Positions 1-64,000 of a DNA stretch of 64,000 nucleotides are shown in pieces. A program made the translations under genes and the position numbers. The notes under the pieces were generated by a model. It was not told the origin of the DNA and searched no databases. It saw only the letters and a list, made by a program, of their open reading frames with translations. The first letter of the stretch is position 1. Every line of letters starts with the position of its first letter. This DNA comes from an uncultured Bacteroidota bacterium (lineage in GTDB: Bacteria; Bacteroidota; Bacteroidia; Bacteroidales; P3). Where the stretch lies: contig CACYPU010000001.1 of assembly GCA_902776365.1 (NCBI GenBank), positions 310,001 through 374,000 of the forward strand. Direction: 5' to 3'.

Positions 1-579
1 TACAATATGTATCTCCACATGGACGGCGCCCGCCTGGCCAACGCCGCCGTGGCCCTTAGATGCTCGTTCAAGGAGATGACCACCGACCTCGGCGTCGACT
101 GCCTCTCCTTCGGTGGCACCAAGAACGGCATGCTCATGGGCGAGAGCTGCGTGATACTTAATCCCGCCCTCGACATCGACCTCAAATACCGCCGCAAGCA
201 GATGACCCAGCTCTGCAGCAAGATGCGCTTCATCGCCGCCCAGTTCGAGGCCTACCTCACCACAGGCCTCTGGCGCCGCAACGCCGAGCACAGCAACGCG
301 ATGGCGCAGCTGCTGAAAAAGGAACTGCAGGAGCTAATGTCCCAGCACTCCCCGGCACTCCCCAGCACTCCCCAGCACTCCACAATAAAAATCATGTACC
401 CCGTTCAGGTCAACAGCGTCTTCGTCCAGCTCCCTGCCGAGGTGTGGCACGCGTTGCAGAAGGAATACTTCTTCTACGACTGGGACGAAGCCCAGAACGT
501 CGTCCGCTGGATGTGCTCCTTCGACACCACCGAGGACGACATCCACTCTTTCGTTTCCGCCCTGAAACGCTTACTTTGA
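1..579 (+). CDS. ltaE: L-threonine aldolase, 5' end cut by window edge
   Basis: C-terminal part of a PLP-dependent low-specificity L-threonine aldolase, which cleaves threonine to glycine and acetaldehyde in the cytoplasm. The reading frame is open from base 1, so the true start lies outside the window. Visible family motifs are HMDGARLANA near the left edge and SFGGTKNG, whose Lys (codon 121-123) is the expected PLP Schiff-base lysine. The C-terminal small domain follows. About 150 residues are missing compared with a full-length enzyme. A four-unit 10-bp repeat (341-381) lies in frame between the two domains and encodes a Ser/Pro/His-rich insert. The ORF ends at a TGA just before an A-rich gap. 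Confidence 0.88.
   Translation, partial: YNMYLHMDGARLANAAVALRCSFKEMTTDLGVDCLSFGGTKNGMLMGESCVILNPALDIDLKYRRKQMTQLCSKMRFIAAQFEAYLTTGLWRRNAEHSNAMAQLLKKELQELMSQHSPALPSTPQHSTIKIMYPVQVNSVFVQLPAEVWHALQKEYFFYDWDEAQNVVRWMCSFDTTEDDIHSFVSALKRLL
341..381 (+). repeat. Tandem 10-bp array inside threonine aldolase
   Basis: Four near-identical units of CCCAGCACTC, one with a G for A. They are in frame and encode SQHSPALPSTPQHS. The same word occurs at 3815-3846 and 4951-4976, and a related one at 13422-13462. Confidence 0.9.
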
Positions 580-625
580 ATTAAAAAAAAGAAAAAATAT
601 TTTAATTTTTAATTCTTAATTTTAT

Positions 626-1135
626 ATGAAACGCATCGCCCTCATCCTCCTAATTTTCACCTTTCACCTTTCACCTTTCACCTTGAAGGCCCAGGATTTC
701 ACCTTCGACGGAGTGAAGATGCTACAACCTGTAAGTCAGTTCAAGACCGATTTGGAGACCAAAGGCTATGTGGCCACAGCATCGTGGTACGAAGGCACCG
801 AATACTGGTTCTCCGGCGTGTTCCTCGGACGCAGGCCCAATTATTTCAATGTCAGAGGATACAAGGATTACGTCATGGAGGTGAATGTGGCCTATTCTTT
901 CGCCTCTATAAGCGAGGTCGACAAGTTCAAGCAGGAAGCTTTCGAACTTCTAAAAAAGACCTACCCCGACTTCAAGGCTCGTCAAGACGAGTATAGTTAT
1001 ATGTTGGAGGGCTCCACCGGCACCGTTTCCATCTACTGGGGATTTAAGGAAACATTCGCAGGAGGCGATATGATGTTCCCCGTAGAAGATGTCTATGTGG
1101 TATCCATTTTTTTCCAGCCGAAGAAGAAGAAATAA
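626..1135 (+). CDS. Secreted protein of unknown function
   Basis: A 169-residue protein that I do not recognise. It begins with a Sec signal peptide (MKRIALILLIF..., ending near LKAQ), so it is probably periplasmic or surface exposed. The mature part is alpha/beta with many aromatic residues and no Cys lipobox. The hydrophobic core of the signal peptide is written by a TTTCACC repeat (655-684). An AT-rich gap separates it from the aldolase, and a weak hairpin with a T-tract lies 65 bases downstream. Its C terminus is Lys-rich (PKKKK). Confidence 0.7.
   Translation: MKRIALILLIFTFHLSPFTLKAQDFTFDGVKMLQPVSQFKTDLETKGYVATASWYEGTEYWFSGVFLGRRPNYFNVRGYKDYVMEVNVAYSFASISEVDKFKQEAFELLKKTYPDFKARQDEYSYMLEGSTGTVSIYWGFKETFAGGDMMFPVEDVYVVSIFFQPKKKK
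655..684 (+). repeat. TTTCACC array coding a signal-peptide core
   Basis: About four 7-bp units of TTTCACC. They translate as FTFHLSPFTL and form the hydrophobic part of the signal peptide. The same word appears inverted at 11872-11929 and 35120-35150. Confidence 0.88.
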
Positions 1136-9628: not shown

Positions 9629-9659
9629 CCATTGTAATTGTTACCTGTTAATTGTTTCC

Positions 9660-10310
9660 ATGGTCCCCATTGCTCATATAGAGACACCTTTCAAAACCAA
9701 ATTCGGAGTGCCGCGGCAGTCGGGATTGGTGGAGTGCGAGGCACGGGTAGTGTTCGAATCGGAGTTCCGCGTCCCTGAGGCCGTGCGTGGATTGGAGGAG
9801 TTCGACTACCTGTGGCTGATATGGAAGTTTCACCTTGCTGAGCGCGAAGGGTGGAGCCCCACGGTGCGGCCGCCGCGGCTGGGGGGCAACAAGAGGGTAG
9901 GGGTCTTCGCCACGCGCAGCCCCTTCCGCCCCAATCCCATAGGGCTTTCCTGCGTGCGCCTGCTGCGCGTCGAGCCGGGTCCCGTGCTGGTGGTGCAGGG
10001 CGCCGACCTCGTCGACGGCACCCCCATCCTTGACATCAAGCCCTACCTTCCCTATACTGACAGCCATCCCGAGGCCCGCAGCGGCTTCGCCCCCGACGCT
10101 CCCGCAGCGGCCCTCTCGGTGGAGGACCCCGACGGGGTGCTGGCACCCTTGCCCGCCGACCTCCGCGAGGCGTTGTGCCAGTCGCTGGCACAGGACCCTC
10201 GGCCCCATTATCAGGACGACGCCGACCGCATCTACGCCATGCTCTTCGACCGCTGGGAAGTGCGATTCTGTGTCAAAGACAATAAATTGACAATTATAAG
10301 TTTACACTAA
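9660..10310 (+). CDS. trmO: tRNA (t6A37-N6) methyltransferase TrmO
   Basis: A 216-residue SAM-dependent enzyme of the TsaA/TrmO (UPF0066) family, which methylates t6A37 of tRNA-Thr. Family landmarks are PIAHIETPF at the N terminus, FDYLWLIWKFH, VGVFATRSPFRPNPIGLS and a C-terminal region with ILDIKPYLPYTDS. The ATG at 9660 was chosen over upstream in-frame codons because it gives the conserved start. A 110-bp tandem array follows immediately after the stop. Confidence 0.88.
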   Translation: MVPIAHIETPFKTKFGVPRQSGLVECEARVVFESEFRVPEAVRGLEEFDYLWLIWKFHLAEREGWSPTVRPPRLGGNKRVGVFATRSPFRPNPIGLSCVRLLRVEPGPVLVVQGADLVDGTPILDIKPYLPYTDSHPEARSGFAPDAPAAALSVEDPDGVLAPLPADLREALCQSLAQDPRPHYQDDADRIYAMLFDRWEVRFCVKDNKLTIISLH

Positions 10311-10311
10311 C

Positions 10312-10421
10312 AACTACCCACTATCCACTATCCACTACCCACTATCCACTATCCACTACCCACTATCCACTATCCACTACCCACTATCCACTATCCACTA
10401 CCCACTACCCACTACCCACTT
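10312..10421 (+). repeat. Long CCACTAT/CCACTAC tandem array
   Basis: About fifteen 7-bp units. Two CCACTAT units alternate with one CCACTAC to give a 21-bp higher-order period over most of the array. It fills the gap between trmO and the sigma factor gene. The same word is inverted at 35400-35430 and 36691-36725. Confidence 0.92.
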
Positions 10422-11877: not shown

Positions 11878-11929
11878 GAGGTGAAAGGTAAAAGGTGAAA
11901 GGTGAAAGGTGAAAAATGAAAATGAAAAC
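11872..11929 (+). repeat. GGTGAAA array crossing a stop codon
   Basis: About seven units of AGGTGAA(A), the complement of the TTTCACC word, starting within the last codons of the CHU_C gene and providing its TGA stop. Confidence 0.88.
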
Positions 11930-11978
11930 AGCTGGCCACTGAATGCCGGCTGCTTTTCTTTATTAATAATCAACGACT

Positions 11979-12013
11979 TATTTTTCATTTTTCATTTTTC
12001 ATCTTTCATTTCA
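11979..12013 (+). repeat. TTTTTCA array upstream of rnpB
   Basis: Four to five units of TTTTTCA, ending 12 bases before the rnpB -7 box. The same word builds signal peptides at 12539, 54485 and 55906. Confidence 0.88.
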
Positions 12014-12455: not shown

Positions 12456-12480
12456 GAAAAGGAAAAATGAAAACGGAAAA

Positions 12481-13347
12481 ATGAAAAAGAATGATTCGCA
12501 CAAAACAAGGTCGTTGTTGACGCTCTGCGCCAGCATCGTTTTCATTTTTCATTTTTCATTTTTCATTTTTTCCTGTTCCGGCGAATACATCGGTGTGCCG
12601 CGTGCCGAGGTGCTGCGCTACCAGACGACCCCCACCTATGGGGTCCTCCACGAGCTGGCCACCGCCTATGCTGTGTCGCTCAACAACGCCGTGAAGGCCG
12701 ACACCCTCCATCCCGGCATGTATGCCGAATACGGCGTCACCCTCGCCCTGATGGGACACACCGGCACGGCCTGCCGCATGCTCAATGCCGAGATGAAGGC
12801 CTTCCCCGAGAGTCGCGGCATGGTGACCCGCATCAAGCAGCGCCTCATGCCCGACATGCTGATAGACACGCTGGCTACGCCGCGCGACACCGCCAACCTT
12901 GTCCAACTGGCCGCCTGGGCCTATGACTCTGTCACGGCCCTCAAGCCCCTGCCCCCTGTGGCGGCCGTCATCGACAGCACCGACACCGTGTGGATATCGC
13001 TGCAGACACCCGTCGACTCGGTGAACTATCCCATCCGCCTCACCGCCACCGAGAAGCGCGAGATCCTCGAGCGCCAGCAGGCCGAAGAGGCCGCACGCCA
13101 GCAGCATGTAGCCGACTCGTTGGCAGCCGAGAAGCAGGCCGCCATCGAGGCCCGCAAGCAGGCACAGCTCGAGCGCGAGCGCGAGAAGAAAGCCAAGGAG
13201 GAGGCTCGCAAGGCCGAGCAGCAGGCCCGCGAGCAGCAGCGCGAAGAAGAACGCAAACAGAAAGCCGCCCAGCGCGAGGAAGAGCGCAAACGCAAAGCCG
13301 CCGAACGCGAGGAAGCCAAGAAGAATAAGAAGAAACAAAATGACTAG
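12481..13347 (+). CDS. DUF4810-type lipoprotein
   Basis: A 288-residue lipoprotein with lipobox FIFSCSG. The core (GVPRAEVLRYQTTPTYGVL, then MYAEYGVTLALMG, CRMLNAEMKAFPES and FIKQR-like VTRIKQRLMPD) matches DUF4810 outer-membrane lipoproteins. From about residue 180 a long charged coiled coil rich in Glu/Arg/Lys/Ala follows. DUF4810 genes usually sit with CsgG-like and DUF799 lipoprotein genes; a DUF799-type gene overlaps the 3' end here, but no CsgG homologue lies upstream (rnpB does). The ATG at 12481 was chosen for the MKK start. The signal-peptide core is a TTTTTCA repeat. Confidence 0.75.
   Translation: MKKNDSHKTRSLLTLCASIVFIFHFSFFIFSCSGEYIGVPRAEVLRYQTTPTYGVLHELATAYAVSLNNAVKADTLHPGMYAEYGVTLALMGHTGTACRMLNAEMKAFPESRGMVTRIKQRLMPDMLIDTLATPRDTANLVQLAAWAYDSVTALKPLPPVAAVIDSTDTVWISLQTPVDSVNYPIRLTATEKREILERQQAEEAARQQHVADSLAAEKQAAIEARKQAQLEREREKKAKEEARKAEQQAREQQREEERKQKAAQREEERKRKAAEREEAKKNKKKQND
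12539..12572 (+). repeat. TTTTTCA array coding a signal-peptide core
   Basis: Four to five units of TTTTTCA, read in frame as FIFHFSFFIF, directly before the lipobox Cys. Confidence 0.92.
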
Positions 13348-14185
13348 GAATAGAGATATTATGGGAGTGCAAAGGAGTGCAAAGGAGTGCAAGACAAATG
13401 TTCCTGCAAAAGGTATTGTCCCTGCACTCCTCCGCACTCCTTGGTACTCCTTGGTACTCCTCCTTATTCTTGCTTCCTGCTCCAGCCAGAAGAAGCTCGA
13501 CGCCTACAGCGACATCTACTCCGAGCGGCCTAATGTCATCTATGTCGCCCCGCTCAACGACCTCTCCTTGCGCCGTGCCCTGCGCACCACCGAGGACTCG
13601 CTCTACAACATCTCACTCAACGTCGCCGCCAAGCATCTCTACCTCACCGCCGCCGACCCCCTGATACACCACGGATACTACCTCCCCGGCCCCTTGGCTT
13701 CCGCCCAGATCGCCGCCACCGAGTGGCGCACCGGCAAGCAACTCCGCAACGACGACATCAGCGACTACTACACCTCCCTCGGCATCGATGCCGTGCTCTT
13801 CATCACCCTCCAGAGCTGGCAGTGTACCTACAACACCTGGACCGTCGAGGTGGAGTATGTGCTTCGCTCCACGCATTCCGGCAACGAACTCTTCCATGTG
13901 TCGGTCAAGGCCATGAAGCTCCTCACCACCGACTTCAAGGGCAACCTCCTGCCGCTGGGCGAGGACGCCGACTTCGCCCGCCGCTACGGCTGCGACGTCG
14001 AGACCGCCCAACGCTGCCGCCTCGTCGAGACCCTCAACCAGTATGTCCTCAAGGACCTCCCCTCTGGTGCCCATGCTCGCCAGCACAACACCGAGCGCTA
14101 CATACCCTCCCATCCCGAGTATTTCAACCTCAAGATACATCCCGACGGCAGCGTCCAGATGCTCCAAACCGAACTCTATGAGTGA
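13340..14185 (+). CDS. DUF799 / GNA1162-family lipoprotein
   Basis: Lipoprotein of the DUF799 (GNA1162) family, partner of the DUF4810 protein. The body begins after lipobox LASCSSQ. Typical features are RPNVIYVAPLNDLS, DPLIHHGYYLPGPL, DYYTSLGIDAVLFITLQSW and a C-terminal NLKIHPDGSVQM. It overlaps the upstream gene by 8 bases; another in-frame ATG at 13361 is possible. The N-terminal 35 codons are almost entirely repeat-derived: a GGAGTGCAAA array (13363-13392) and an ACTCCTTGGT-type array (13422-13462), which supplies TPWYSLVLLL of the signal peptide. The family is linked to outer-membrane assembly with CsgG-like proteins. Confidence 0.78.
   Translation: MTRNRDIMGVQRSAKECKTNVPAKGIVPALLRTPWYSLVLLLILASCSSQKKLDAYSDIYSERPNVIYVAPLNDLSLRRALRTTEDSLYNISLNVAAKHLYLTAADPLIHHGYYLPGPLASAQIAATEWRTGKQLRNDDISDYYTSLGIDAVLFITLQSWQCTYNTWTVEVEYVLRSTHSGNELFHVSVKAMKLLTTDFKGNLLPLGEDADFARRYGCDVETAQRCRLVETLNQYVLKDLPSGAHARQHNTERYIPSHPEYFNLKIHPDGSVQMLQTELYE
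13363..13392 (+). repeat. GGAGTGCAAA array at a gene start
   Basis: Three 10-bp units of GGAGTGCAAA in the first codons of the DUF799 gene. Confidence 0.88.
13422..13462 (+). repeat. GCACTCCTTG / ACTCCTTGGT array in a signal peptide
   Basis: Four 10-bp units of the CACTCC family (CGCACTCCTT, GGTACTCCTT), roughly complementary to 13363-13392, encoding part of the hydrophobic signal region. Confidence 0.85.
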
Positions 14186-18117: not shown

Positions 18118-18184
18118 TTGTACGATAGTTGTACGATACTTGTACGATAAATCATCGTACAAGTATCGTACAACTATCGTACAA
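18118..18184. repeat. Perfect 31-bp inverted repeat built of TTGTACGATAG units
   Basis: The left arm (18118-18148) is three near-copies of an 11-bp unit (TTGTACGATAG, TTGTACGATAC, TTGTACGAT). The right arm (18154-18184) is its exact reverse complement, with loop AAATC. A further partial unit (GTTGTACGTCA) precedes it, and CAACGAACGG follows. There is no T-tract, so it is not a standard terminator. It may be a cruciform, a protein-binding array or a structured RNA. The rest of the 18086-18347 gap holds no gene. Confidence 0.9.
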
Positions 18185-27344: not shown

Positions 27345-27480
27345 AAGGGGTTTGAGGGGTTAAAAGGGTTTGAAAGGTTTGAAAGGTTTGAAAGGTTTGA
27401 GGGGTTTGAAAGGTTTAAAGGGTTTGAAAGGTTAAAAAGGTTTAAGGGGTTTGAGGGGTTAAAAGGGTTTGAAAGGTTTA
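27345..27480 (-). repeat. Long TTTCAAACC/TTTAACCCC tandem array
   Basis: About 135 bases of TTTCAAACC-type units (9-10 bp) with interspersed TTAACCCC. It spans the gap between the flavodoxin and dipeptidase genes and reaches the flavodoxin stop codon. The same word family is at 41901-41992, 60002-60160 and 62274-62373. Confidence 0.92.
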
Positions 27481-35801: not shown

Positions 35802-35830
35802 AGGGTTTAAAAGGTTTAAGTGGTCAGTGG

Positions 35831-39676: not shown

Positions 39677-39752
39677 ACCGTTAACCGTTAAACCTTAACC
39701 GTTAAACGTTAAACGTTAAACTTTAAACTTTAAACGTTAACCTTTAACCGTT
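39677..39752 (-). repeat. AACGTTTAACGGTT-type array between two T9SS genes
   Basis: About ten imperfect units of TTTAACG/GTTTAAAG spanning the gap and the 3' end of the next gene (39737). A related array is at 61094-61134. Confidence 0.85.
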
Positions 39753-41518
39753 ACCACCACTCTCCGAGCGGCGGCGTTGCCTACCTTCACCAGGTAGACA
39801 CCTGCGGCAGGTACTTCGATTCTGAACTCTGAATTCTGAATTCCGAATTCCCCAAGGAGTCGGCCCGTGACGTCGAAGATGCTCACCGGCATCCCCTCTG
39901 CGCCCTTCACGATGATTCTGTTGTCCATGCTGTAGACCTCGAAGTCGGCAGCCTCGATATTGTCGATGCCCGTCACCGATTCGAAGTTGGCGTTAAGGGT
40001 CGTGTCGGAGGTCACGATAATGGTGTAGAGGGTGTCGCTGCAAAGGACGGTGCCGTCGGTGGCCGTCCAGTTCACAAAGCGGTAGCCGTCGTAGGCGCTG
40101 GCCATTAAAGAGATTTGGTCGCCCTCAAACACCAGGTGCATCGGGAAGGCCACCGAACCCATCGTGTAGTCCCAGTTCACATTCACCGTGTAGTATCCAC
40201 CCTCGGCAAAAAGCGCCTTGAGGCTCACATCCTCGGTCACTATGAAGGTATAGGGGTTGGCGTAAGTAATCGGCATGTCGGTCGTTGCGTCGGCCCAGCC
40301 GAGGAAGTGGTAGCCGCTCTCGGCGGTGGCGGTGGCCGTGAAGGTCTGGCCATAAGCCACAGTGCTCGTGCCGGCGGGACTCACGGAGCCCATGGTTTCG
40401 TCGGCACTGCTCAGCGTCACCGTGTGCTGGAGGGGCTCAAAAACGGCCGTGATATAGATGCCCGCAGTGGGCAGCGTATCCAACAGCTGCTGCATCACAC
40501 CGAGGAACCTCACAGGGTTCGAGAAATTCGGGTCGTCAAAGTGGATAGTGTCCGAAATCACCGCCACATCCCAGTCCATCCACGCAATGTAATAGGTATA
40601 CTCCATAATCCACGCACTCAGCATATAGCCGTCGTTGGCGATGGCCTCCGCAGTCACCTCGTCGCCCACATGGATGGGATAATCGCCCGGTGCGGGAGTG
40701 GTGGTACCCATCGTCGTATCGTTCACGGCATAGGTGATATGTGTGCTTGCGGGAGCGCCCACAGCAAAATTGGCCGTCAGATTCAGGGTCGCCTGCACAT
40801 ACAGCGGGCTCACCACCCATCCTCCTATCGGTTGGGCCAGCATGTGGAGCAGCTCGAACGTGCTCATCTCGCCAGCCGAACGCAGCTCATCAATTATCAT
40901 CATGAGGTCGAAAGCATCCTGCACCGCGATGTTCACCGTCGTGTCGATATACGTCGCGCCGCCGAAAGCCACCTGGATGGTCCAGCCCGTCAGGTGATAG
41001 CCCTCGTTGGCCAGCGCCACCACATGACAGGTGTCGCCCTCGGCAAACTTGTGGGTGCCGGCACCCGGAAAGGTCATACCCATCACGGCATTGTTCACCG
41101 CCACATTCACCACCATGCTGTCGGGCACATACTCGCTCGCAGCCACAAAGTTGGCCGTCACGCTGAACGAATACCAGTTGTGTCCTATCTGCACCACCCA
41201 GCCGTCGCCGCCGTTAATCATCCCCACCAGGTCGAACACATCGGCCATAGGCAGGTTCACTGTCGTGTCCATCAGCACGGTGCCCATGAACGACCACTGG
41301 ATATCCCATCCCGTCAGGACGTAGCCCTCGTTGGCCATTGCCACCACGTGGCAGGTGTCGCCCACATGGAAATAATGCGCTCCCGGAGCCGGAGTCGTCG
41401 TGCCCATCACGGGATTGTTCACGGCTATGTTGACAAGCATGCTGTCATTCTGTGCTTTCGTCGTCAGCGGCAGCAGCATCGTCGCCACCACCAGCAATAT
41501 ACGTAATGTTTTCTTCAT
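39737..41518 (-). CDS. T9SS surface protein with InlB-type B-repeats
   Basis: A 593-residue protein with signal peptide (MKKTLRILLVVATMLLPLTT, KAQ). The body has four to five related units of about 90 residues, each with a VNNPVMGTTTPAPG-type turn, a VGDTCHVVA strand and a GYVLTGW strand, as in divergent InlB B-repeats. One unit reads ETMGSVSPAGTSTVAYGQTF. The C-terminal T9SS type A domain (VYSMDNRIIVKGAEGMPVSI, FDVTGRLLGEFG, AGVYLVKVGNAAARRVVV) marks it for type IX export. A repeat-coded segment (EFGIQNSEFRIEV) lies just before the AGVYLVKV strand. Confidence 0.85.
   Translation of the reverse strand: MKKTLRILLVVATMLLPLTTKAQNDSMLVNIAVNNPVMGTTTPAPGAHYFHVGDTCHVVAMANEGYVLTGWDIQWSFMGTVLMDTTVNLPMADVFDLVGMINGGDGWVVQIGHNWYSFSVTANFVAASEYVPDSMVVNVAVNNAVMGMTFPGAGTHKFAEGDTCHVVALANEGYHLTGWTIQVAFGGATYIDTTVNIAVQDAFDLMMIIDELRSAGEMSTFELLHMLAQPIGGWVVSPLYVQATLNLTANFAVGAPASTHITYAVNDTTMGTTTPAPGDYPIHVGDEVTAEAIANDGYMLSAWIMEYTYYIAWMDWDVAVISDTIHFDDPNFSNPVRFLGVMQQLLDTLPTAGIYITAVFEPLQHTVTLSSADETMGSVSPAGTSTVAYGQTFTATATAESGYHFLGWADATTDMPITYANPYTFIVTEDVSLKALFAEGGYYTVNVNWDYTMGSVAFPMHLVFEGDQISLMASAYDGYRFVNWTATDGTVLCSDTLYTIIVTSDTTLNANFESVTGIDNIEAADFEVYSMDNRIIVKGAEGMPVSIFDVTGRLLGEFGIQNSEFRIEVPAAGVYLVKVGNAAARRVVVTVKG
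39818..39852 (-). repeat. GAATTCAGA array in the T9SS sorting domain
   Basis: Four units of GAATTC(A/G)GA on the minus strand, in frame, close to the second sorting-domain strand. Confidence 0.88.
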
Positions 41519-47986: not shown

Positions 47987-50596
47987 TTACGCTTCAATTA
48001 AATTTTTTGCCACGCTGAGGGCTTTGTCGAGACCGTCGGGGTTCTTGCCGCCGGCGGTGGCGAAATGGGGCTGGCCGCCACCACCGCCTTGGATTTCTTT
48101 GCCGAGGGTGCGTACCATCTGTCCGGCGTTCATTCCGGCATCCACATGGTTCTGTCCCAGCACGATAAGTAATGCAGGCTTGCCGCCGGTGACGCTGCCC
48201 AGCACAAGGGCCATATCGGGATTGTCGTTGCGGAGGGCCATCAGGGCGTCCTTAACGGTATTGACGTCAAAATCAACACGCTCGATGAGGATTGGAGCGT
48301 TTTTCAACCTGTCGGCAATGTCTTTGGCCACGCCGGCGGCTTTCTCTTTCTGCAACTGTTCGACGGTGGACTTCAGGCCTGCGTTCTCTTCTTGCAGCTT
48401 GGCGATGGAGGAAGCCAGGTCTTTGGTGCCCTTGAACATCTCGTTGAGGGAGAGTAACAACTCCTGCTGCTCGTCGGCATAGCGCTCAGCGGCGGCGGCG
48501 GTGACGGCTTCGATGCGGCGCATGCCGGCAGCGATAGCACCTTCGCTGACGATGCGGAAGGAGCCAATCATGCCAGTGTTCTGCACATGCGTGCCGCCGC
48601 AGAATTCAATGCTGGGACCGTATTTCACCACACGCACCTTGTCGCCGTATTTCTCTCCGAAGAGGGCCATAGCGCCCAGTTTCTGGGCTTCAGCAATGGG
48701 CATGGCGCGGTGTTCCTCGAGGGGCAGGCACTGGCGAATCATATGGTTCACGCGGCGTTCCACATTGCGAATCTCCTCGGGGCTCAGCTTGGCGAAGTGG
48801 CTGAAGTCGAAGCGCAGGCGCTCGGCGTCGACGCTGGAACCTTTCTGCTCCACGTGGTCGCCAAGGACTTGGCGCAGAGCATAATGCATGAGATGGGTGG
48901 CAGAGTGGTTGCAGGCAGTTGCTTGACGCTTGTCCACATCAACCTCAGCATGGAATGTCGCGGTAAGGTTTTCAGGCAGCGTATCAACAATATGTACAAT
49001 CAGCCCGTTTTCTTTTTTCGTATTGACAATTTTCAATTCTAAATTCTCAATTCTCAATTTTCCCGTGTCTCCCGTCTGGCCGCCACTCTCGCCGTAGAAG
49101 GGGGTGCGGTCGAAGACCAGCTGGTAGAATTCCTTGTCTTTGGCTTTCACACGACGGTAGCGGGCGATGTGCACGTCGGCTTCGAGGGCGTCGTAGCCGA
49201 TGAACTCCTCCTCCACACCCGGCAGCAGCTCCTGCCAGTCGTCGCTCTCCACTTTGGCGGCACCGCGCGAGCGCTCTTTCTGCTCCTGCAGGCCTTTTTC
49301 AAAGCCGACCATATCGACAGACCATCCTTTCTCGCTGGCCATCAGCTGTGTGAGGTCGATGGGGAAGCCGTAGGTGTCAAAGAGTTCGAAGGCAAAAGCA
49401 CCATCGATTGTTTGATTGCTTGATTGCTTGATTGTGTGAGTGATATAGTCATTGAAACGTTTGATGCCGCCGGCTAGGGTGCGCAGGAAAGCCTGTTCTT
49501 CTTCGAGGATGATGCGCTGGATGAGTTCCTGCTGCTTCTTGAGCTCGGGGAACTGATGGCCCATCTGGCTCACGAGGGTGGGGACGAGGGTGTTGATGAA
49601 CGGCTCGGTGAAGCCGAGGAAGGTGTAGCCGTAGCGCACGGCGCGGCGCAGGATGCGGCGGATGACGTAGCCGGCTTTCACGTTGGAGGGCAGCTGCCCG
49701 TCGGCGATGCTGAAACTCACGGCACGCAGGTGGTCGGCACAGACACGCATGGCGATGTCGGCGTCCTCATTCTCGCCGTATTTCTTACCGCATTTGGAAG
49801 CAATCTCTTGGATGAGAGGCTGGAACACATCGGTGTCGTAGTTCGAGCGCTTGCCCTGCATCACCATGCAGAGACGCTCAAAGCCCATGCCGGTGTCGAT
49901 GTGCTTGGCCTTCAGAGGCTCCAAGGTGCCGTCTGCTTTGCGGTTGAACTGCATAAAGACGAGATTCCATATCTCGATGACCTGAGGGTTGTCCTTGTTC
50001 ACGAGGTCTTTGCCTGGCACTTTGGATTTTTCTTCATCGGGACGGATGTCGACGTGAATTTCCGAGCAGGGGCCGCAGGGACCTTGGTCGCCCATCTCCC
50101 AGAAGTTGTCCTTCTTCGAGCCGCGCAGGATACGGTCCTCGCTGATGTGCTCCTTCCAGAAGTTGTAGGCCTCCATATCCATCTCGAGACCTTCCTTCTC
50201 GTCGCCACCGAAGACGGTGACATAGAGCCAGTCTTTATTTATCTTCATCACCTCGGTGAGGAACTCCCATCCGTAGGCGATGGCCTCTTTTTTAAAGTAA
50301 TCACCAAAGCTCCAATTGCCCAGCATCTCGAACATCGTATGGTGGTAGGTGTCGTGGCCCACTTCCTCGAGGTCGTTGTGTTTTCCGCTGACGCGGAGGC
50401 ACTTTTGGCTGTCGGTGGCGCGGGGCCACTGGCGCTGCTGGTTGCCGAGGAAAATGTCCTTGAACTGGTTCATGCCGGCGTTGGTGAACATCAGCGTCGG
50501 GTCGTTCTTGATGACCATGGGGGCACTCGGCACCACATGGTGATCCTTGCTCTCAAAATAGTCTAAAAAGGCTTTTCTTATCTCGTTCGAAGTCAT
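47987..50596 (-). CDS. alaS: Alanyl-tRNA synthetase with two repeat inserts
   Basis: An 869-residue class II synthetase. Catalytic domain: MTSNEIRKAFLDYFESKDHH, VPSAPMVIKNDPTLMFTNAG, EMLGNWSFGDYFKKEA, GPCGPCSEIH. The editing domain has HSATHLMHYALR and EFCGGTHVQNTG; a coiled coil and C-Ala domain follow. Two repeat arrays sit in frame: THTIKQSSNQTID (49405-49440) between the catalytic and tRNA-recognition parts, and RIENLELKIVNT (49024-49063) just before the editing domain. Both lie at variable domain borders. Confidence 0.95.
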   Translation of the reverse strand: MTSNEIRKAFLDYFESKDHHVVPSAPMVIKNDPTLMFTNAGMNQFKDIFLGNQQRQWPRATDSQKCLRVSGKHNDLEEVGHDTYHHTMFEMLGNWSFGDYFKKEAIAYGWEFLTEVMKINKDWLYVTVFGGDEKEGLEMDMEAYNFWKEHISEDRILRGSKKDNFWEMGDQGPCGPCSEIHVDIRPDEEKSKVPGKDLVNKDNPQVIEIWNLVFMQFNRKADGTLEPLKAKHIDTGMGFERLCMVMQGKRSNYDTDVFQPLIQEIASKCGKKYGENEDADIAMRVCADHLRAVSFSIADGQLPSNVKAGYVIRRILRRAVRYGYTFLGFTEPFINTLVPTLVSQMGHQFPELKKQQELIQRIILEEEQAFLRTLAGGIKRFNDYITHTIKQSSNQTIDGAFAFELFDTYGFPIDLTQLMASEKGWSVDMVGFEKGLQEQKERSRGAAKVESDDWQELLPGVEEEFIGYDALEADVHIARYRRVKAKDKEFYQLVFDRTPFYGESGGQTGDTGKLRIENLELKIVNTKKENGLIVHIVDTLPENLTATFHAEVDVDKRQATACNHSATHLMHYALRQVLGDHVEQKGSSVDAERLRFDFSHFAKLSPEEIRNVERRVNHMIRQCLPLEEHRAMPIAEAQKLGAMALFGEKYGDKVRVVKYGPSIEFCGGTHVQNTGMIGSFRIVSEGAIAAGMRRIEAVTAAAAERYADEQQELLLSLNEMFKGTKDLASSIAKLQEENAGLKSTVEQLQKEKAAGVAKDIADRLKNAPILIERVDFDVNTVKDALMALRNDNPDMALVLGSVTGGKPALLIVLGQNHVDAGMNAGQMVRTLGKEIQGGGGGQPHFATAGGKNPDGLDKALSVAKNLIEA
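49024..49063 (-). repeat. GAATTGAGA array in alaS
   Basis: Four to five imperfect 7-9 bp units (GAATTGAGA, GAATTTAGA, TTGAAAATT) on the minus strand, coding LRIENLELKIVNT. Confidence 0.8.
49405..49440 (-). repeat. CAATCAAG array in alaS
   Basis: Four units of CAATCAAG/CAATCAAA on the minus strand, in frame (TIKQSSNQTID). Confidence 0.9.
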
Positions 50597-53757: not shown

Positions 53758-54414
53758 ATGATTACAAACATGGACATGGCCGCTAAGACGGCAGATTTTT
53801 TATTGACAGTGAAAGCAGTAAAGCTCAATAACGAGCATCCTTTCACATGGGCTTCGGGGCGCAAATCGCCCATTTATTGCGACAACAGGGTGACTTTGTC
53901 GTATCCTGAGATCCGCACTTTCATCCGCCAACGCTTCGTCGAGGTGATTCGCGAGACGTGGGGTGATGTGGATGTAATCGCTGGTGTGGCGACGGGTGGT
54001 ATTGCCCAGGGTGCCTTGGTGGCGCAAGAGTTGGGCAAGCCTTTCGTGTATGTGCGCTCGGAGAGTAAGAGCCACGGCCTGACAAACCAGATTGAGGGCG
54101 AAATCCACGAGGGTCAGTCGGTAGTGGTCATCGAGGACCTGGTGTCAACGGGCAAGAGTTCCCTTATCGCTGTGAAAGCCTTGCGAGAGAAAGGCTGCGA
54201 GGTGAAGGGTATGGCCGCCATCTTCACCTATGGTCTGCAAGTGGCTTCCGACAACTTTACGAACGAGAAAGTGGAGCTGATGACGCTGACGGACTACGAC
54301 ACGCTGATTCAGGTGGCCCACGAGAAGGAGTATGTGCGTCCCGAGGACTTCGAGAGCCTCTCGGCTTGGCGTAAAAACCCCGAACAGTGGAGCAAAGAGC
54401 ACGGCGAAGAATGA
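53758..54414 (+). CDS. pyrE: Orotate phosphoribosyltransferase
   Basis: A 218-residue enzyme of pyrimidine biosynthesis, converting orotate and PRPP to OMP. Conserved pieces are FTWASGRKSPIYCDNRVTLS, VIAGVATGGIAQGALVAQEL, and the PRPP motif VVVIEDLVSTGKSSL. Starts at 53758, 53770 and 53776 are possible; the short distance from the -7 box favours either a leaderless ATG 53758 or the later ones. The stop overlaps the next gene by ATGA. Confidence 0.94.
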   Translation: MITNMDMAAKTADFLLTVKAVKLNNEHPFTWASGRKSPIYCDNRVTLSYPEIRTFIRQRFVEVIRETWGDVDVIAGVATGGIAQGALVAQELGKPFVYVRSESKSHGLTNQIEGEIHEGQSVVVIEDLVSTGKSSLIAVKALREKGCEVKGMAAIFTYGLQVASDNFTNEKVELMTLTDYDTLIQVAHEKEYVRPEDFESLSAWRKNPEQWSKEHGEE

Positions 54415-54441
54415 AGAATGAAGAACTAAGAATGAAGAATT
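54405..54441 (+). repeat. AAGAATG array over a stop/start junction
   Basis: Five units of AAGAATG/AAGAACT spanning the pyrE stop and the start codon of the SUMF1 gene. Start choice is therefore uncertain. Confidence 0.85.
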
Positions 54442-55247
54442 CGACTGCCGCAGTCGGGTTGCGCAAAATTATTTGTGCATGTCTATTTTTCATTTTTCAT
54501 TTTTCATTTTTCAATTTGCTGTGGGCGCAGGACAGTGTTGTTCGTGTGCAGGTGATTGAGGGCGTGACGGTGGATATGGTGTGGGTGAAAGGGGGTACGT
54601 TCACGATGGGCAACAATGAGACTCCGAAAGGAGTGAAGTTGACCTACGAGGCTTCGCGCCCGGAACACAAGGTTACGGTGGGTAATTACTACATCGGCCG
54701 TTTCGAGGTGACGCAGGCTCTGTGGACCGCGGTGATGGGAGAGAATCCCTCGAAGTTTGCTACCGTTGGTAACGACAGTTTGCCGGTGGAGAGTGTGAGT
54801 TGGGAAGATGCGCAACGTTTCACTATTATGCTGAGTCAGATGACGGGCCGTCGGTTTCGCCTTCCGACAGAGTCCGAATGGGAGTATGCGGCGCGAGGAG
54901 GCTCGAAGTATCCTTTTGCGGGATGTGAACGTGGCAAGTTGGACAAGTACTGCTGGTACTGTGTGAACAGCGAACGTACGCCACATGCTGTGGGACGACT
55001 GTTGCCGAATGCCCTGGGTTTGTATGACATGAGTGGTAATGTGGCGGAGTGGTGTCAGGACTGGATGGGGGACTATGGCAAGGAGGCCCAGGAGAATCCA
55101 CGAGGGCCACGAGAAGGAGAAAATAAGGTTCTTCGTGGTGGCCACTACAACAGCACTTCGCCGGCCTGCACGGTATACGACCGTGCATGGTACCTGCCCA
55201 TGATGAAACAAGAGTATTTCGGACTGAGAGTGGTGATGGAGGAATAA
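54411..55247 (+). CDS. Secreted SUMF1/formylglycine-generating-enzyme-like protein
   Basis: A 278-residue protein with a signal peptide (ending LLWAQ) and a FGE-sulfatase (SUMF1/EgtB) domain: VDMVWVKGGTFTMGNNETPK, YYIGRFEVTQALWTAVMGEN, LPVESVSWEDAQRFT, RFRLPTESEWEYAARGGSKY, GLYDMSGNVAEWCQDW and VLRGGHYN, EYFGLRVV. The two Cys of true FGE are not conserved, so it is probably a non-catalytic or binding member. The start was set at 54411 (ATGA overlap with pyrE). The signal core is a TTTTTCA array. Confidence 0.83.
   Translation: MKNEELRMKNSTAAVGLRKIICACLFFIFHFSFFNLLWAQDSVVRVQVIEGVTVDMVWVKGGTFTMGNNETPKGVKLTYEASRPEHKVTVGNYYIGRFEVTQALWTAVMGENPSKFATVGNDSLPVESVSWEDAQRFTIMLSQMTGRRFRLPTESEWEYAARGGSKYPFAGCERGKLDKYCWYCVNSERTPHAVGRLLPNALGLYDMSGNVAEWCQDWMGDYGKEAQENPRGPREGENKVLRGGHYNSTSPACTVYDRAWYLPMMKQEYFGLRVVMEE
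54485..54516 (+). repeat. TTTTTCA array in a signal peptide
   Basis: Four units of TTTTTCA coding FIFHFSFF, then LLWAQ, the h-region of the SUMF1 protein signal. Confidence 0.92.
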
Positions 55248-55824: not shown

Positions 55825-56262
55825 ATGAAGAATGAAGAATTAAAAGTGGTCAGTGGTCAGTGCTCAGTGGTCAGTGTGCTGCGCAAGATGGTTTGCGTCA
55901 GCATAATTTTCATTTTTCATTTTTTATTTTCCATTTCCCTTGTTGGCTGCAGCGATGATCCCGTGCTGGACGTCAATCCCGACGACCTGACAGGCAAATG
56001 GGTAGTGGAGAATACGCAAGAATACTGGCGCTTCCGCAGTGGTGGCACCGGCGTGACTTGGGACGAAAGCGAGGATATCTCTGAAGAGGAGAGCAATCTG
56101 CGGTTTGAATGGATGCTCGACAGGGATGAGTTGACTTGTGTGTTCCGTGGCGAGAATGAGAACCAGGCGGTTCCGAAAGTTTACCGCATCCGCGAGATAA
56201 CGACATCGTCAATGAAGTGGGAGAATATCTACGGACAAACAACTAGATTGAAGAAAATATGA
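55825..56262 (+). CDS. Small lipocalin-like lipoprotein
   Basis: A 145-residue lipoprotein (lipobox LVGCSDD). The mature part reads DDLTGKWVVENTQEYWRFRS and continues with beta strands (DELTCVFRGENEN, VYRIREITTSSMKW), the pattern of Bacteroidota lipocalin-like DUFs. The first 35 codons are mostly repeat-derived: a CAGTGGT array (VVSGQCSVVSV) and a TTTTTCA-type array forming the signal core. The stop overlaps the AsmA start by ATGA. Confidence 0.72.
   Translation: MKNEELKVVSGQCSVVSVLRKMVCVSIIFIFHFLFSISLVGCSDDPVLDVNPDDLTGKWVVENTQEYWRFRSGGTGVTWDESEDISEEESNLRFEWMLDRDELTCVFRGENENQAVPKVYRIREITTSSMKWENIYGQTTRLKKI
55846..55877 (+). repeat. GTGGTCA array at a gene start
   Basis: Four units of CAGTGGT/CAGTGCT, in frame (VVSGQCSVVSV), the word complementary to ACTGACC. 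Confidence 0.88.
55906..55936 (+). repeat. TTTTTCA array in a signal peptide
   Basis: Four imperfect units of TTTTTCA/TTTTCCA coding IFIFHFLFSI. Confidence 0.85.
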
Positions 56263-59486: not shown

Positions 59487-60001
59487 GAAAATTTTTTCAT
59501 AGATACCAATCGACCATACATGGCAACTACCGAAAGGCATACTTGAGGAGCGGTCTGTTGACGGGAATAATGCTGGTGTTGTACCTGCTGGTGCGGTGGA
59601 TGATGAACAATCCAGCCGAAAGCCCCATCTCTTTCCTCAGCGACGGCATCCTGCTGGTGGCGGGATTTCTCTTCTCCATGCTCTACCGCAACACGTTGCC
59701 CGACCGCAAGGCCACCTTGAAGGAGTTGATGCTCTTTGGCCTGGGCACTGCCATTTTGGCATGCTTTTTGTATGGTTTATTTATATGGGTGTCCGGATTT
59801 GCCATTCCGGGACAAATTGAGTTGTTTACCAACACGATGAAGGGATCCGGAGAATTTTCCAAGTTTCCTGCCCACTACTGGTCGGCGTTCTGGGCTTTTA
59901 TCGCGGCTGTCTTTATGGCAGTTCTCGGCGGATTCGGAGCCTTTATCTCGGCACTCATCCTAAAAAACGAAAAACCTGTTGTAAAAACAAAAAAACAATA
60001 A
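59483..60001 (+). CDS. DUF4199 membrane protein
   Basis: A 172-residue membrane protein of four helices: LLTGIMLVLYLLVRWM, DGILLVAGFLFSML, GLGTAILACFLYGLFIWVSG, SAFWAFIAAVFMAVLGGFGA. This four-helix order and its position directly before a DPM1-type glycosyltransferase are typical of DUF4199. It may assist polyprenyl-sugar handling (inference). It overlaps asmA by 4 bases; a 159-bp repeat array lies downstream. Confidence 0.78.
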   Translation: MRKFFHRYQSTIHGNYRKAYLRSGLLTGIMLVLYLLVRWMMNNPAESPISFLSDGILLVAGFLFSMLYRNTLPDRKATLKELMLFGLGTAILACFLYGLFIWVSGFAIPGQIELFTNTMKGSGEFSKFPAHYWSAFWAFIAAVFMAVLGGFGAFISALILKNEKPVVKTKKQ

Positions 60002-60160
60002 CCTTTTAAACCCTTTAAACCTTAAACTTTAAACCCTTTAACCCTTTTAAACCTTTTAAACCCTTTAAACCTTTTAACCCTTTTAAACCCTTTAACCCTT
60101 TTAAACCTTTTAAACCTTTTAAACCCTTTAAACCCTTTAAACCCTTTAACCCTTAAACCA
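60002..60160 (+). repeat. Long TTTAAACCC tandem array
   Basis: About 159 bases of 8-10 bp units TTTAAACCC, TTTTAAACC and TTAACCC, filling the whole gap between DUF4199 and the glycosyltransferase. The last unit ends against the ATG. Confidence 0.95.
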
Positions 60161-61093
60161 ATGGACATTTCAATCGTTGTACCTTCATATAATGAGGACG
60201 AATCGCTTCCTCATCTGGCAGAATGGATCGACCGCGTAATGCGTGAGCATGGTTTCAGCTACGAGGTCATCATTGTTGACGATGGCAGCCGTGACGGCAC
60301 CTGGCAGGCCGCTGAGAAGCTCCATGCCGCCAACCCCTGTTACCGTGGCATCAAGTTCCGCCGCAACTATGGTAAGTCCGCCGCCCTCAACACCGGTTTC
60401 TCTGCCGCCCAGGGCGATGTGGTCATCACCATGGATGCCGACTTGCAGGACAGCCCCGACGAGGTGCCTGAACTCTATCGTATGATAAAGGAGGAGGGGT
60501 ATGACCTCGTCTCTGGATGGAAGAAGAAACGTTACGACTCCAAATTGGCAAAGAATATCCCGTCGAAGTTCTTCAACTGGACCACCCGTCGCATGAGTGG
60601 CATCAACCTGCACGACTTCAATTGTGGTCTCAAGGCCTACCGCCACGATGTGGTGAAAAGCATCGAGGTCTATGGCGAGATGCACCGCTTCATCCCTGTC
60701 ATCGCCAAATGGTCAGGCTTCGGCAAGATTGGCGAGAAAGTCGTCCAGCACCGGAAACGTGAATTTGGCGTCACCAAGTTCGGCATGAACCGTTTCATCA
60801 ACGGCTACCTTGACCTTATGTCCATCATGTTCATGTCGAAATTCGGCAAACAGCCCATGCACTTCTTTGGTGCTGTGGGTACGGTGTCGGGACTCTTCGG
60901 CTTCATCTCACTCATCGTCGTCATTATCATGCGTCTGAGCGGACACATAGCCCTCACCAACAGCGTGTGGTTCTACCTCTCCATGCTCTTCCTGGTGTTG
61001 GGCGTGATGCTCTTCCTTGCCGGTTTCCTCGGCGAACTCATCTGCCGTAACTCCACCACACGCAACCAATACCTTATCGAAAAAGAACTTTAA
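60161..61093 (+). CDS. Polyprenyl-phosphate glycosyltransferase (GT2)
   Basis: A 310-residue GT2 enzyme with two C-terminal helices. GT-A signatures are ISIVVPSYNEDESLPHL, EVIIVDDGSRDGTWQAA, FRRNYGKSAALNTGF, VVITMDADLQDSPDEVPEL and HRFIPVIAKWSGF followed by HRKREFGVTKFG. This is the ArnC/DPM1/GtrB pattern, moving a sugar to undecaprenyl phosphate. It follows DUF4199. Confidence 0.9.
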   Translation: MDISIVVPSYNEDESLPHLAEWIDRVMREHGFSYEVIIVDDGSRDGTWQAAEKLHAANPCYRGIKFRRNYGKSAALNTGFSAAQGDVVITMDADLQDSPDEVPELYRMIKEEGYDLVSGWKKKRYDSKLAKNIPSKFFNWTTRRMSGINLHDFNCGLKAYRHDVVKSIEVYGEMHRFIPVIAKWSGFGKIGEKVVQHRKREFGVTKFGMNRFINGYLDLMSIMFMSKFGKQPMHFFGAVGTVSGLFGFISLIVVIIMRLSGHIALTNSVWFYLSMLFLVLGVMLFLAGFLGELICRNSTTRNQYLIEKEL

Positions 61094-61134
61094 CCCATAA
61101 TCGTTAACCGTTAACCTTTAAACTTTAACCGTTA
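61094..61134 (+). repeat. GTTAACC/TTTAAAC array
   Basis: About five units of CGTTAACC/TTTAAACT in the gap before ychF, the same family as 39677-39752. Confidence 0.82.
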
Positions 61135-62266: not shown

Positions 62267-62270
62267 TCAC

Positions 62271-64000
62271 ATGAAAGGTTTAATAGGTTTAAGAGGTTTT
62301 AAAGGTTTGAGAGGTGCGCGTCTTTTGCCCGTCACCTTTTTAACCTTTTCAACCCTTTTAACCTTTTTAACCCTCTCCTCTTGCTCCACCCAGAAAGCCA
62401 AGTGGGTCAACATCCAGTACCATAACCTCACCTGTCACTACAACGTTTGGTGGAACGGTAACGAAAGCCTCAAGGCTGGACGGCTGAAACTCAAAAAGCA
62501 AGCCGTCGACGACTACACTCAACTCATCCCCATCGAAAACCTCGGCACCGACGAGTTGTCTCGCTCCCTCAATCCTGAGTTCGACCGCGCCATCGAGAAA
62601 GGCGTCAAAGGCATCAGGGAACATAGCATCTTTGTCAAAGGCCAGGAACATGTGCCCTACATCAAGGAATGCTACCTCCTCACCGCCTACGCTACCTTCT
62701 ATAAGCACGACTTCGTCTCCACCGTCAACTCCTGCAACATCCTTGTCAGTCAGTTCCCCGGCACACGCGCCGGCGACGAAGGCGCCGTCCTCCTTGCCCG
62801 CTGCCAGACCATGGAGAAGCAGTACCCCGAGGCCGAAGCAGCCCTCGACCAGCTTGTGCGCAACCTCGACAAAGGCAACTTCTCCCGCTCTCAGCGCGAC
62901 AAGCTCTACCTCGCTATGGTCGAAGCCACCGTGCCACAGGAGAAATACAAGAAAGCCGTCGAATATATCCATCTCGCCATCGACGCCTCCTCCGACAGCT
63001 ACACGCGCGCGCGTCTCTATTTCCTTATGGCCCAGATCTACCGTAAGCTCGACAAACGCACCGTCGCCGCCAAATACTACGGCGAAGTGCTCTCCTGCAA
63101 CCCGCCCTACGTTATGGAGTTCAACGCCCGCCTCGGCGAAGCCTCCTGCGCCGACCTCCAAAACTCCGACACCGCCAAGCTTGCCCGTCAGCTCGACCGC
63201 ATGCTCTCCGACAAGAAGAACGAGGAATACCTCGACCAGATATACTACGCCAAAGGCGAAATGTACCTCGGTGTCAAGCAGCCCCAGAAAGCCTGCGAAA
63301 ACTACCGCCTCTCCGTCGCAGCGTCCACTGTCAACAAGGCACAGAAAGCCCAGTCGTCTCTTCGCATGGGTGAGGTGCTCTACGATATTTTCGAGGACTA
63401 TGACCAGGCCCAGAGCTACTACGACACCGCCATCCATATCATCACCCCCGACTATCCCAATTACCCCGCCATCCGCCGCCGCTACGACATGCTCACCGAG
63501 CTCGTCTCCTTCACCCGCGTCTACTCCCGCTGCGACAGCCTCAAAGCCGTCGCCGCCATGCCTGAGTCCGAACGCATGAACCTCATCAACGGCAAGATTG
63601 AAGCGCTTAGAAAGCAGGAGGAAGAAGCCCGCGAGAAAGAGCTCATGGAGGAACTCCTCTCCGACGCCCGTGCTCAGCAGAACACCCTCTCCGGCGACTG
63701 GTACTTCTACAATCCCCAGACCGTCCAGAAAGGCAAGGAAACCTTCCGTCAACGGTGGGGCACCCGCACCCTCGAAGACCTCTGGTTCCTCTCCAACAAG
63801 AATACGATGTCTATGCTCACTTTCGACGATGAGCCCGACTCCGACTCAAGCAATAACGCAATAACGCAATCACGCAATCAAGACACCTCAAGCAATAACG
63901 CAATAACGCAATCACGCAATCAATACGGCGACCCCACCGACCCCCACAGTCCTGCCTATTATCTCAAGGACCTCCCCACCTCGCCGCAGCAGTTCGACTC
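62271..64000 (+). CDS. porW: T9SS lipoprotein PorW/SprE, 3' end cut by window edge
   Basis: Partial lipoprotein, 576 codons seen, open to the window edge. Start ATG 62271. The signal peptide (MKGLIGLRGFKGLRG, then TFLTFSTLLTFLTLSSCST) is built from the GGTTTAA/AACCTTTT repeat. The start of the mature part, AKWVNIQYHNLTCHYNVWWN, is the conserved opening of PorW/SprE. Many TPR-like helices follow (KECYLLTAYATFYKHDFVST and others). PorW/SprE is an outer-membrane-linked component of type IX secretion, which fits the T9SS cargo genes in the window. A duplicated 36-base repeat insert lies near 63846-63928. Confidence 0.87.
   Translation, partial: MKGLIGLRGFKGLRGARLLPVTFLTFSTLLTFLTLSSCSTQKAKWVNIQYHNLTCHYNVWWNGNESLKAGRLKLKKQAVDDYTQLIPIENLGTDELSRSLNPEFDRAIEKGVKGIREHSIFVKGQEHVPYIKECYLLTAYATFYKHDFVSTVNSCNILVSQFPGTRAGDEGAVLLARCQTMEKQYPEAEAALDQLVRNLDKGNFSRSQRDKLYLAMVEATVPQEKYKKAVEYIHLAIDASSDSYTRARLYFLMAQIYRKLDKRTVAAKYYGEVLSCNPPYVMEFNARLGEASCADLQNSDTAKLARQLDRMLSDKKNEEYLDQIYYAKGEMYLGVKQPQKACENYRLSVAASTVNKAQKAQSSLRMGEVLYDIFEDYDQAQSYYDTAIHIITPDYPNYPAIRRRYDMLTELVSFTRVYSRCDSLKAVAAMPESERMNLINGKIEALRKQEEEAREKELMEELLSDARAQQNTLSGDWYFYNPQTVQKGKETFRQRWGTRTLEDLWFLSNKNTMSMLTFDDEPDSDSSNNAITQSRNQDTSSNNAITQSRNQYGDPTDPHSPAYYLKDLPTSPQQFD
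62274..62315 (+). repeat. GGTTTAAGA array in the porW signal peptide (first half)
   Basis: About five units of AGGTTTAA/AGGTTTTA/AGGTTTGA coding the Lys/Arg-rich n-region KGLIGLRGFKGLRG. Confidence 0.92.
62333..62373 (+). repeat. CCTTTTTAA array in the porW signal peptide (second half)
   Basis: About five units of ACCTTTTTAA/ACCCTTTTA, complementary to 62274-62315, coding the hydrophobic core TFLTFSTLLTFLTLSS. It forms an inverted pair with the first half. Confidence 0.92.
63846..63928 (+). repeat. Duplicated AACGCAAT/CACGCAAT array in porW
   Basis: Two copies of a 36-base block (four 8-bp units AGCAATAA, CGCAATAA, CGCAATCA, CGCAATCA) separated by GACACC, coding SSNNAITQSRNQ twice. Confidence 0.92.

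Follow-up and report, generated by a model that had tools for sequence, protein, structure and literature searches.

We analyzed a stretch of 64,000 nucleotides (hereafter, the window; G000:C1:310001-374000) from a Bacteroidales metagenome-assembled genome (MAG) of 2,230,681 bases in 18 contigs (89.65% complete). A sequence-only reading of the window had noted a small set of recurring tandem words, and had proposed that the words were spread by copying, for example through gene conversion or reverse transcription. One family of these repeats, designated L3, has indeed spread by copying: it has a discrete length, its many copies are similar across unrelated genes and several species, those in frame keep to one reading frame, and orthologous sites are often empty. 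However, the copied unit is a 76 bp hairpin element and not the bare word, and neither gene conversion nor reverse transcription was shown. Spread by copying is also supported for a second family, L2, on six copies. We consider it probable that several families of small palindromic elements, with arms made of tandem words, have been copied to intergenic gaps and to in-frame sites within genes.

The window's own genome (G000) was compared with 24 further genomes of the same genus. Three samples were used for counting: 464 kb of the own genome (the window and 20 stretches of 20 kb each), 379 kb from 20 sister species, and 80 loci of named relatives (1.39 Mb).

L3 copies, host genes and orthologous sites

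L3 surfaced in a search with a phosphotransferase/RapZ-C protein, which picked up a single short segment that recurs in unrelated genes, most of them from three species. The element is a palindrome, typically of 76 bp, with arms of ~30 bp around a loop of ~12 nt. Its arms are the ACCCACT/CCACTAT arrays, the right arm reading (CACTACC)n. Thirty-seven copies were aligned. The 25 whose ends are clean come from four species and show a mean column identity of 89% over 76 bp, and eight of 41 copies, distributed over three species, carry the same 21-base stretch in the left arm. We argue for copying because the copies share a fixed length, a loop, and departures from the repeated word.

A covariance model of L3 gave matches in 17 of 41 genomes, namely 15 of the 25 of the genus and 2 of the 16 of other families, the latter with at least three matches. 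The scan scored 117 of several hundred candidates per genome, and the counts are lower bounds: at least 55 in the own genome, 54 in G012, 25 in G007, 24 in G002, and 22 each in G019 and G023. Nine further members of the genus had fewer matches, and ten had none among the matches listed. Since a palindrome is usually matched on both strands, the number of elements is about half that of matches, which gives at least ~27 elements in the own genome and 0-27 in the sister species. The hosts, as named by NCBIfam and Pfam, include RadA, RdgB, UvrC, ValS, IleS, DapF, RecG, and TruA, together with a PcrA-like helicase, a PIF1-like helicase, an MraW-type methylase, and a radical SAM protein.

Sixteen of the 23 own-genome copies examined (12 found by the protein search, 11 by the model) lie in frame inside an open reading frame (ORF), and seven are without an open frame. 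For copies in frame, the same frame is open in 41 of 41, and it is the sole open frame of the six in 34; four of five copies outside frames have no open frame at all. Copies found by the protein search are biased toward that reading frame. The 25 separate model matches (24 unseen by the protein search and the one in the window) divide into 10 in the usual frame, 3 in other frames, and 12 with no open frame. None of these 12 is wholly inside an ORF of 120 codons; two touch none and ten partly overlap one. At positions where a run of perfect heptamers would produce a TAG stop, copies in frame often have GAG or CAG instead.

Folding of four copies as DNA gave z scores of -5.3 (L406), -9.1 (L390), -4.9 (L447), and -1.14 (the window copy). 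The window copy, matched by covariance model R1 with 77.4 bits (E = 6e-20), is the only clear L3 in the window, and its host ORF matches neither NCBIfam (cutoff 1e-30) nor Pfam (cutoff 1e-5). Selection on an L3 RNA structure was considered and found no support (87.8% of cells paired, only two pairs changed on both sides).

Orthologous sites were found both filled and empty. The DapF insert occurs only in G012 and is lacking in 21 of 21 other loci, whilst that of FolC, which in the own genome is one L3 right arm, is lacking in 22 of 23 other species. At the same place in FolC, G007 (L187) has a different small palindrome of the ACACCTCCCCTGA type, which has the look of a further family of in-frame elements. 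Of 24 loci of the phosphotransferase/RapZ-C gene, 16 lack an insert and six hold mutually different ones (the remaining two are ambiguous and outside both counts), among them L3 in the own genome and, in G002, a hairpin of the AAAGGTG type. Empty orthologous sites, which the sequence-only reading had proposed to look for in sister strains, were thus seen between species for these three genes. For LigA and AlaRS no clean insertion was seen, the arrays lying in linkers of the same or variable length. Two further genes have different inserts in different species: at one and the same place, a UvrD-type helicase carries L3 in G012 and a hairpin of the AAAGGTG type in G002, and in TruA the insert is L3 in two genomes (G000 and G012) and, in G002, a different one whose arms are inverted.

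L3 insertions are common to orthologous sites of TruA (G000 and G012), RadA (G012 and G019), and the radical SAM gene (G012 and G019). In six ortholog comparisons L3 was 83-92% identical, which fits inheritance after insertion. An assembly artefact had been named as a possible refutation, and the genomes are indeed drafts, the own one incomplete and in 18 contigs, those of the sister species in at least 20; given insertions shared between separate genomes, with conserved flanks, we hold an artefact to be barely credible.

The start of a lipoprotein gene downstream of ychF was compared in 15 of 21 species, the six others showing no match to the lipobox pattern. In seven species the arms are self-complementary, with scores of 10-23, and are mostly made of different words. 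When arms were swapped between species the mean was 6.4, and the highest score, 21, came from a pair with a word in common; the remaining eight species scored 6-9.

Recurrent words and hairpin arms

In the window, 69 rows of Tandem Repeats Finder (TRF) have a score of at least 40. There are 26 perfect tracts, 19 of them with period 7, as against one tract in ten local shuffles taken together; the short-word arrays first described from the letters of the window are thus real. The own-genome sample has 73 perfect tracts (53 heptamers), the sister sample 47 (37 heptamers; 9 of its 20 stretches lack such tracts), and the named relatives 24. The sequence-only reading had listed at least ten words, all of them said to recur at a minimum of two loci and to occur in both orientations. 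Under a strict rule of at least 2.0 perfect copies per locus, six words have two or more loci (TTTTTCA 4, TTTCACC 3, ACTGACC 3, AATTAAG 3, CCACTAT 2, GTTAACC 2), and all of these apart from TTTTTCA and GTTAACC occur in both orientations. As a whole the claim was overstated, although its core observation holds, CACTCCCCAG, TTTAAACCC, and CAATCAAG having one strict locus each and GAATTCAG zero. Imperfect TRF arrays give further loci for CACTCCCCAG (at 341 and 3816), for TTTAAACCC-like 9-mers (27348, 41901, 60000, and 62276), and for AATTCTG (39405 and 39819). The shuffled window had a mean of 0.0 strict loci for each of the ten words.

Recurrence of words beyond independent slippage is supported by counts of same-word pairs, the words not being those that a draw from local sequence would give. 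The 70 heptamer arrays of the own-genome sample form 122 such pairs. Words drawn by their background frequency would form 2.7 (at most 13 in any of 2000 simulations), and words drawn by squared frequency 4.6 (maximum 15). In the genus sample, 150 heptamer arrays form 155 pairs within and 282 between genomes; permuting the letters inside words (200 runs) gave means of 15.2 and 35.6, and maxima of 27 and 51, respectively. In the same sample AAAATTG occurs 23 times and the letter-reversed AAAAGTT once. The sequence (TTTTCAA)x4 was found at nine places in the own genome among the matches listed, two of them overlapping, and at none in 394 other Bacteroidota; its letter-reversed control had zero occurrences in the own genome and four in two other genomes. 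A dictionary common to several phyla is thus unsupported for TTTTCAA. A Prevotellaceae locus (L067 53-240 and 7100-7269) has long heptamer arrays (AATCACT x15) and, at another place, an inverted pair of heptamer-like arms, and the array habit is therefore wider than this genus.

Sharing across phyla may hold for AAAGGTG, a word also present in the window. Arrays of it lie on the plasmids pTS1 of Treponema saccharophilum (L466 9960-10160; 2.7 copies, twice) and p1 of Pseudomonas silvicola (L467 2006-2063; 8.3 copies), so not every word is peculiar to this lineage. Of two made-up repeat peptides searched against plasmids, one had zero matches. The other matched 53 plasmid records, 48 with less than 60% identity; two of the 53 were read, and both have true AAAGGTG arrays.

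Inverted repeats were sought with arms of at least 18 and a loop of up to 90, and the own-genome sample contained 53, compared with 5 in one shuffle. The arms are tandem-periodic in 30 of these 53, in 44 of 90 from sister species, and in 12 of 88 from 76 named-relative loci. Among 65 perfect arrays, 20 have an inverted partner within 130 nt, a frequency to be set beside 1.7% for flanks of random loci and 4.6% for flanks of other arrays. The idea that all arrays are hairpin arms was dropped, the other 45 having no partner. For words of 7, 9, and 10 bp, the purine-rich arm comes first in 33 hairpins and the pyrimidine-rich arm in one (8 mixed); for 11-bp words the pyrimidine-rich arm comes first in 14 and the purine-rich arm in two (7 mixed). 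Since the reverse complement of a hairpin keeps the same order, this polarity is a property of the element and not of the strand. The loop core GCGYMAGC is present in 11 of 74 loops (0.7 expected), and a longer core, TTTGCGYMAGCA, occurs nine times in the own genome and zero times as a letter-reversed control.

The six aligned L2 copies have a common loop, and L1-type hairpins are likely to be copied elements as well. The MltG gene has an L2 hairpin in the own genome (L116 1830-1926), and in G012 (L458) an AAAGTGG-type hairpin lies in apparently the same gene, at the place of the MltG match. In another G012 gene (L390) the L3-like peptide occurs twice consecutively, the same site in the own genome (L117) being L2-like.

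Long palindromes of the 11-bp word TTGTACGATAC are present in the window and at L112 2502-2579, L122 12828-12916, L124 5600-5702, and L131 7607-7695, with a loop of 5 nt in four of the five and of 14 nt at L112. A second 11-bp palindrome family, of the GAACAATGAAA type, was seen at L113 7894-7948 and L126 4599-4653 (13 nt loops) and at L120 9432-9485 and L125 3454-3505 (loop ta, two nt), with a related array at L123 14168. Perfect palindromes of the TACCAACTCC type, with 27-30-bp arms and 2-6 nt loops, occur at L127 19256-19321, L138 2150-2205 and 15437-15494, and L275 7238-7295 (G009); three TACCAACTCC-type palindromes are in G009.

Explanations weighed and known systems

The account that we favor, copying of palindromic elements, would work as follows. 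Arms of tandem 7-, 9-, 10- or 11-bp words would flank a short loop, and copies would move in trans, perhaps as hairpins, by the action of some enzyme. Selection would then clear insertions from everywhere but gaps, signal peptides, and protein loops that tolerate them, and the survivors within genes would be the copies without a stop in one frame. Slippage inside the repetitive arms, together with loss of one arm, could turn elements into direct-only arrays. The direct arrays without a partner may be halves of elements, a reading that FolC suggests, or products of slippage, which may have grown many of them. Part of the small dictionary would thus be the arm words of element families active in a species. 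The Y1 transposases of PF01797, which include the transposases associated with repetitive extragenic palindromes (REPs), known as RAYTs, were considered as movers. They are unsupported, as their matches do not follow the number of L3: the own genome has one partial match, and G024 has six with zero L3 match (these genomes are incomplete, and RAYTs are not separable from other Y1 proteins).

A number of observations weigh against this account. The 25 aligned L3 copies were picked from the 37 for clean ends, and pairwise identity is 82% within and 78% between genomes, compared with 85.5% to an ideal palindrome of the word; copies are therefore nearer to that ideal than to each other, and part of their likeness is the shared word. 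There is little compensatory change in the arms, and the hairpin of the window's own L3 has decayed. Because neither the length nor the loop of L1-type hairpins is constant, it is only for L3 and, on six copies, for L2 that whole units are shown to be copied. An inverted partner within 130 nt went undetected for 45 of the 65 arrays, and among the 20 with partners some pair mutually and the array at 60097 pairs with itself. A target-site duplication was not evident by eye at the filled sites shown. G019 has ~11 L3 elements yet zero PF01797 matches. The presence of AAAGGTG arrays on plasmids of two other phyla means that this word can arise elsewhere. Finally, at most ~26% of the own genome's DNA was covered, and all comparisons of filled with empty sites are between species.

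Chance as a complete account is ruled out by the shuffles and by the excess of same-word pairs. Under local polymerase slippage only, heptamers would be favored, as would particular words across many bacteria, and arrays would arise independently, surviving in gaps and tolerant loops. The dominance of period 7 here (53 of 73 tracts) and at the loci of relatives, the 45 arrays that are direct only, and the AAAGGTG arrays on the Treponema and Pseudomonas plasmids would all agree with this. However, the pair excess far outruns its simulations, sites empty in orthologs are left over, and the presence in dozens of genes of a 76-bp element whose loop is conserved and non-repetitive rules slippage out as the whole story; we think such an account improbable. 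T-rich words do encode the hydrophobic cores of signal peptides, read in three frames (TTTTCAA gives FSIFNFQ, and TTTCACC gives FTFHLSP), and their recurrence is in part convergent for that reason. Convergent selection as the general cause is nevertheless quite doubtful. In its favor, 16 of 65 arrays pass a simple signal-peptide test, one of which (minus strand, position 11891) is probably spurious, leaving about 15; against it, the same words turn up in TruB, in a symporter, in a helicase, and beyond ORFs, and it leaves unexplained L3, the words in gaps, and the disparity between AAAATTG and its reversal. Many arrays adjoin starts and stops, as they would if they had a regulatory or binding-site role (one has been proposed for TAACTGA repeats) and were spread by selection, but words differ between species at one site and copies lie inside housekeeping reading frames, and we regard such a role as very unlikely.

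Hairpin-templated rewriting, in which template switching copies one arm onto the other in place, with no mobile element, has the lipoprotein site in its favor, where the arms of seven species are self-complementary and mostly of different words. It also agrees with the five genes in which a single site holds different inserts (TruB, TruA, FolC, a helicase, and the phosphotransferase gene), although tolerance limited to few sites could also yield these. Eight of the 15 species have no hairpin at the lipoprotein site, and L3 copying between genes is left unexplained; we consider rewriting rather unlikely. We rate no higher a related and tentative scheme, in which both arms are replaced together by the current word of the species, hairpin and position are kept, and L3-like elements are copied products. 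If true, it would amount to concerted, hairpin-templated turnover of words across the gaps, signal peptides, and protein loops of a genome.

Heptamer repeats are known in cyanobacteria as short tandemly repeated repetitive (STRR) sequences, and protein-coding palindromes of Wolbachia are named beside the Rickettsia palindromic elements (RPEs). By analogy, RPEs appear to be the closest known kind. RPEs are described as palindromic, dispersed elements of 105-146 bp, found between genes and in frame in unrelated, often conserved genes, and perhaps neutral (PMC2229807). L3 is likewise a dispersed palindrome, with a long stem-loop, in-frame copies in unrelated conserved genes, copies between genes, and empty sites in relatives. 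It differs in its 76 bp, its tandem-heptamer arms, and its gut Bacteroidales host, and is likened to RPEs by behavior, not by sequence. REPs are 20-40 bp long, with a GTAG/CGTC tag at one end; GTAG REPs accompany transposase genes, and CGTC repeats occur in Bacteroidetes among five phyla (PMC3733652). These are also short palindromes, some inside genes, but L3 is not a REP because of its size, with stems of ~30 bp, and PF01797 appears not to follow its copy number. Tandem heptamers exceed chance in this genome, and elsewhere such heptamers, with one word at many loci, have been described as GGGAATC in Xanthomonas and Nostoc, where inverted pairs occur in Xanthomonas, and as TAACTGA in Beggiatoaceae (PMC4692102, PMC4679880), and the dominance of period 7 has been noted for many bacteria (Mrazek 2007, via PMC4679880). 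Those systems involve one or a few words that are mostly intergenic, whereas here a set that differs between species is partly built into hairpin arms and has in-frame copies. PARCEL elements are palindromic repeats in coding sequence for which mobilisation inside the genome has been proposed (PMC2996958); they consist of a 25-residue motif in tandem in ORFs without an assigned function, in contrast to the single inserts of L3 in housekeeping genes. Against the statement that no named family is known to match, RPE-type elements and heptamer repeats behave alike. Among the literature matches listed, none concerned palindromic elements with tandem-word arms in Bacteroidales genes.

These comparisons join heptamer "simple repeats" to protein-coding palindromic elements, in that some of the repeats in this genus are element arms. 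A gut lineage with many in-frame copies and empty sister sites also offers a system for studying how selfish DNA enters housekeeping proteins. Where signal-peptide cores are written in repeat words, growth of a repeat could create or replace a secretion signal.

Features of the window

Many arrays occupy intergenic gaps, and 44 of the 65 lie within an ORF of at least 120 codons. Arrays are also found in the housekeeping genes for FolC, TruB, MltG, LigA, and AlaRS. Upstream of ychF, 10 of 20 sister stretches have no intergenic DNA, and heptamer-type arrays, of words that are not all alike, are present in this species and three others. The individual features are collected in Table 1.

Table 1. 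Tandem arrays, hairpins, and the L3 element of the window (positions are those of the window; a dot marks features without an assigned strand)
Position	Strand	Feature	Setting
341..381	+	CACTCCCCAG x4.1 array	same word as right arm of some L2 copies
655..684	+	TTTCACC x4.3 array	signal-peptide core (MKRIALILLIFTFHLSPFTLKAQ)
10305..10420	+	CCACTAT/CCACTAC direct array, inverted partner not found	end of ORF 9588-10310 into gap
11896..12008	+	hairpin, heptamer arms (TGAAAGG / TTTTTCA), 27 nt, 89% complementary	between called ORFs
12457..12569	+	hairpin, TTTTTCA-type arms, z -5.2	start and signal-peptide core of ORF 12454-13347
13364..13450	+	L2-type hairpin, GGAGTGCAAA arms (10-bp units), loop GACAAATG...TATTGTCCC, z -8.9	N-terminal part of ORF 13340-14185
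18118..18184	+	perfect 31-bp palindrome, 11-bp word TTGTACGATAC, 5-nt loop, z -13.1	
27348..27479	.	9-bp GGGTTTGAA direct array	intergenic
35400..35475	-	L3 element, 76 bp, usual L3 frame	inside ORF 34974-35930 (-)
36690..36724	-	CCACTAT array, encodes PTIHYPL	inside ORF 35831-39673
39602..39633	-	ACTGACC array	signal peptide of ORF 35831-39673
39679..39753	.	CGTTAAA direct array	fills intergenic gap
49412..49434	-	AAGCAATC x2.9	inside alaS, length-variable linker
54406..54513	+	AAGAATG array and partly inverted partner TTTTTCA x4.1	secreted protein start/signal-peptide core
55845..55936	+	AGTGGTC array, core TTTGCGTCAGCA (55892-55903), TTTTCAT array	N-terminus of ORF 55825-56262
60000..60154	+	9-bp AACCTTTTA array	fills intergenic gap; short gaps or other words in sister stretches
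61090..61134	+	GTTAACC-type array	fills gap upstream of ychF
62271..62372	+	hairpin, 9-bp AGGTTTAAA-type arms	lipoprotein-like gene start downstream of ychF

The array of CACTCCCCAG that opens the table is possibly an orphan L2 arm, judging by its word. The lipoprotein-like gene that hosts the last hairpin carries TPR domains. The named relatives of YchF are uncultured Bacteroidales MAGs, with a best identity of 88%, and sorting domains of the type IX secretion system (T9SS) are in keeping with Bacteroidota.

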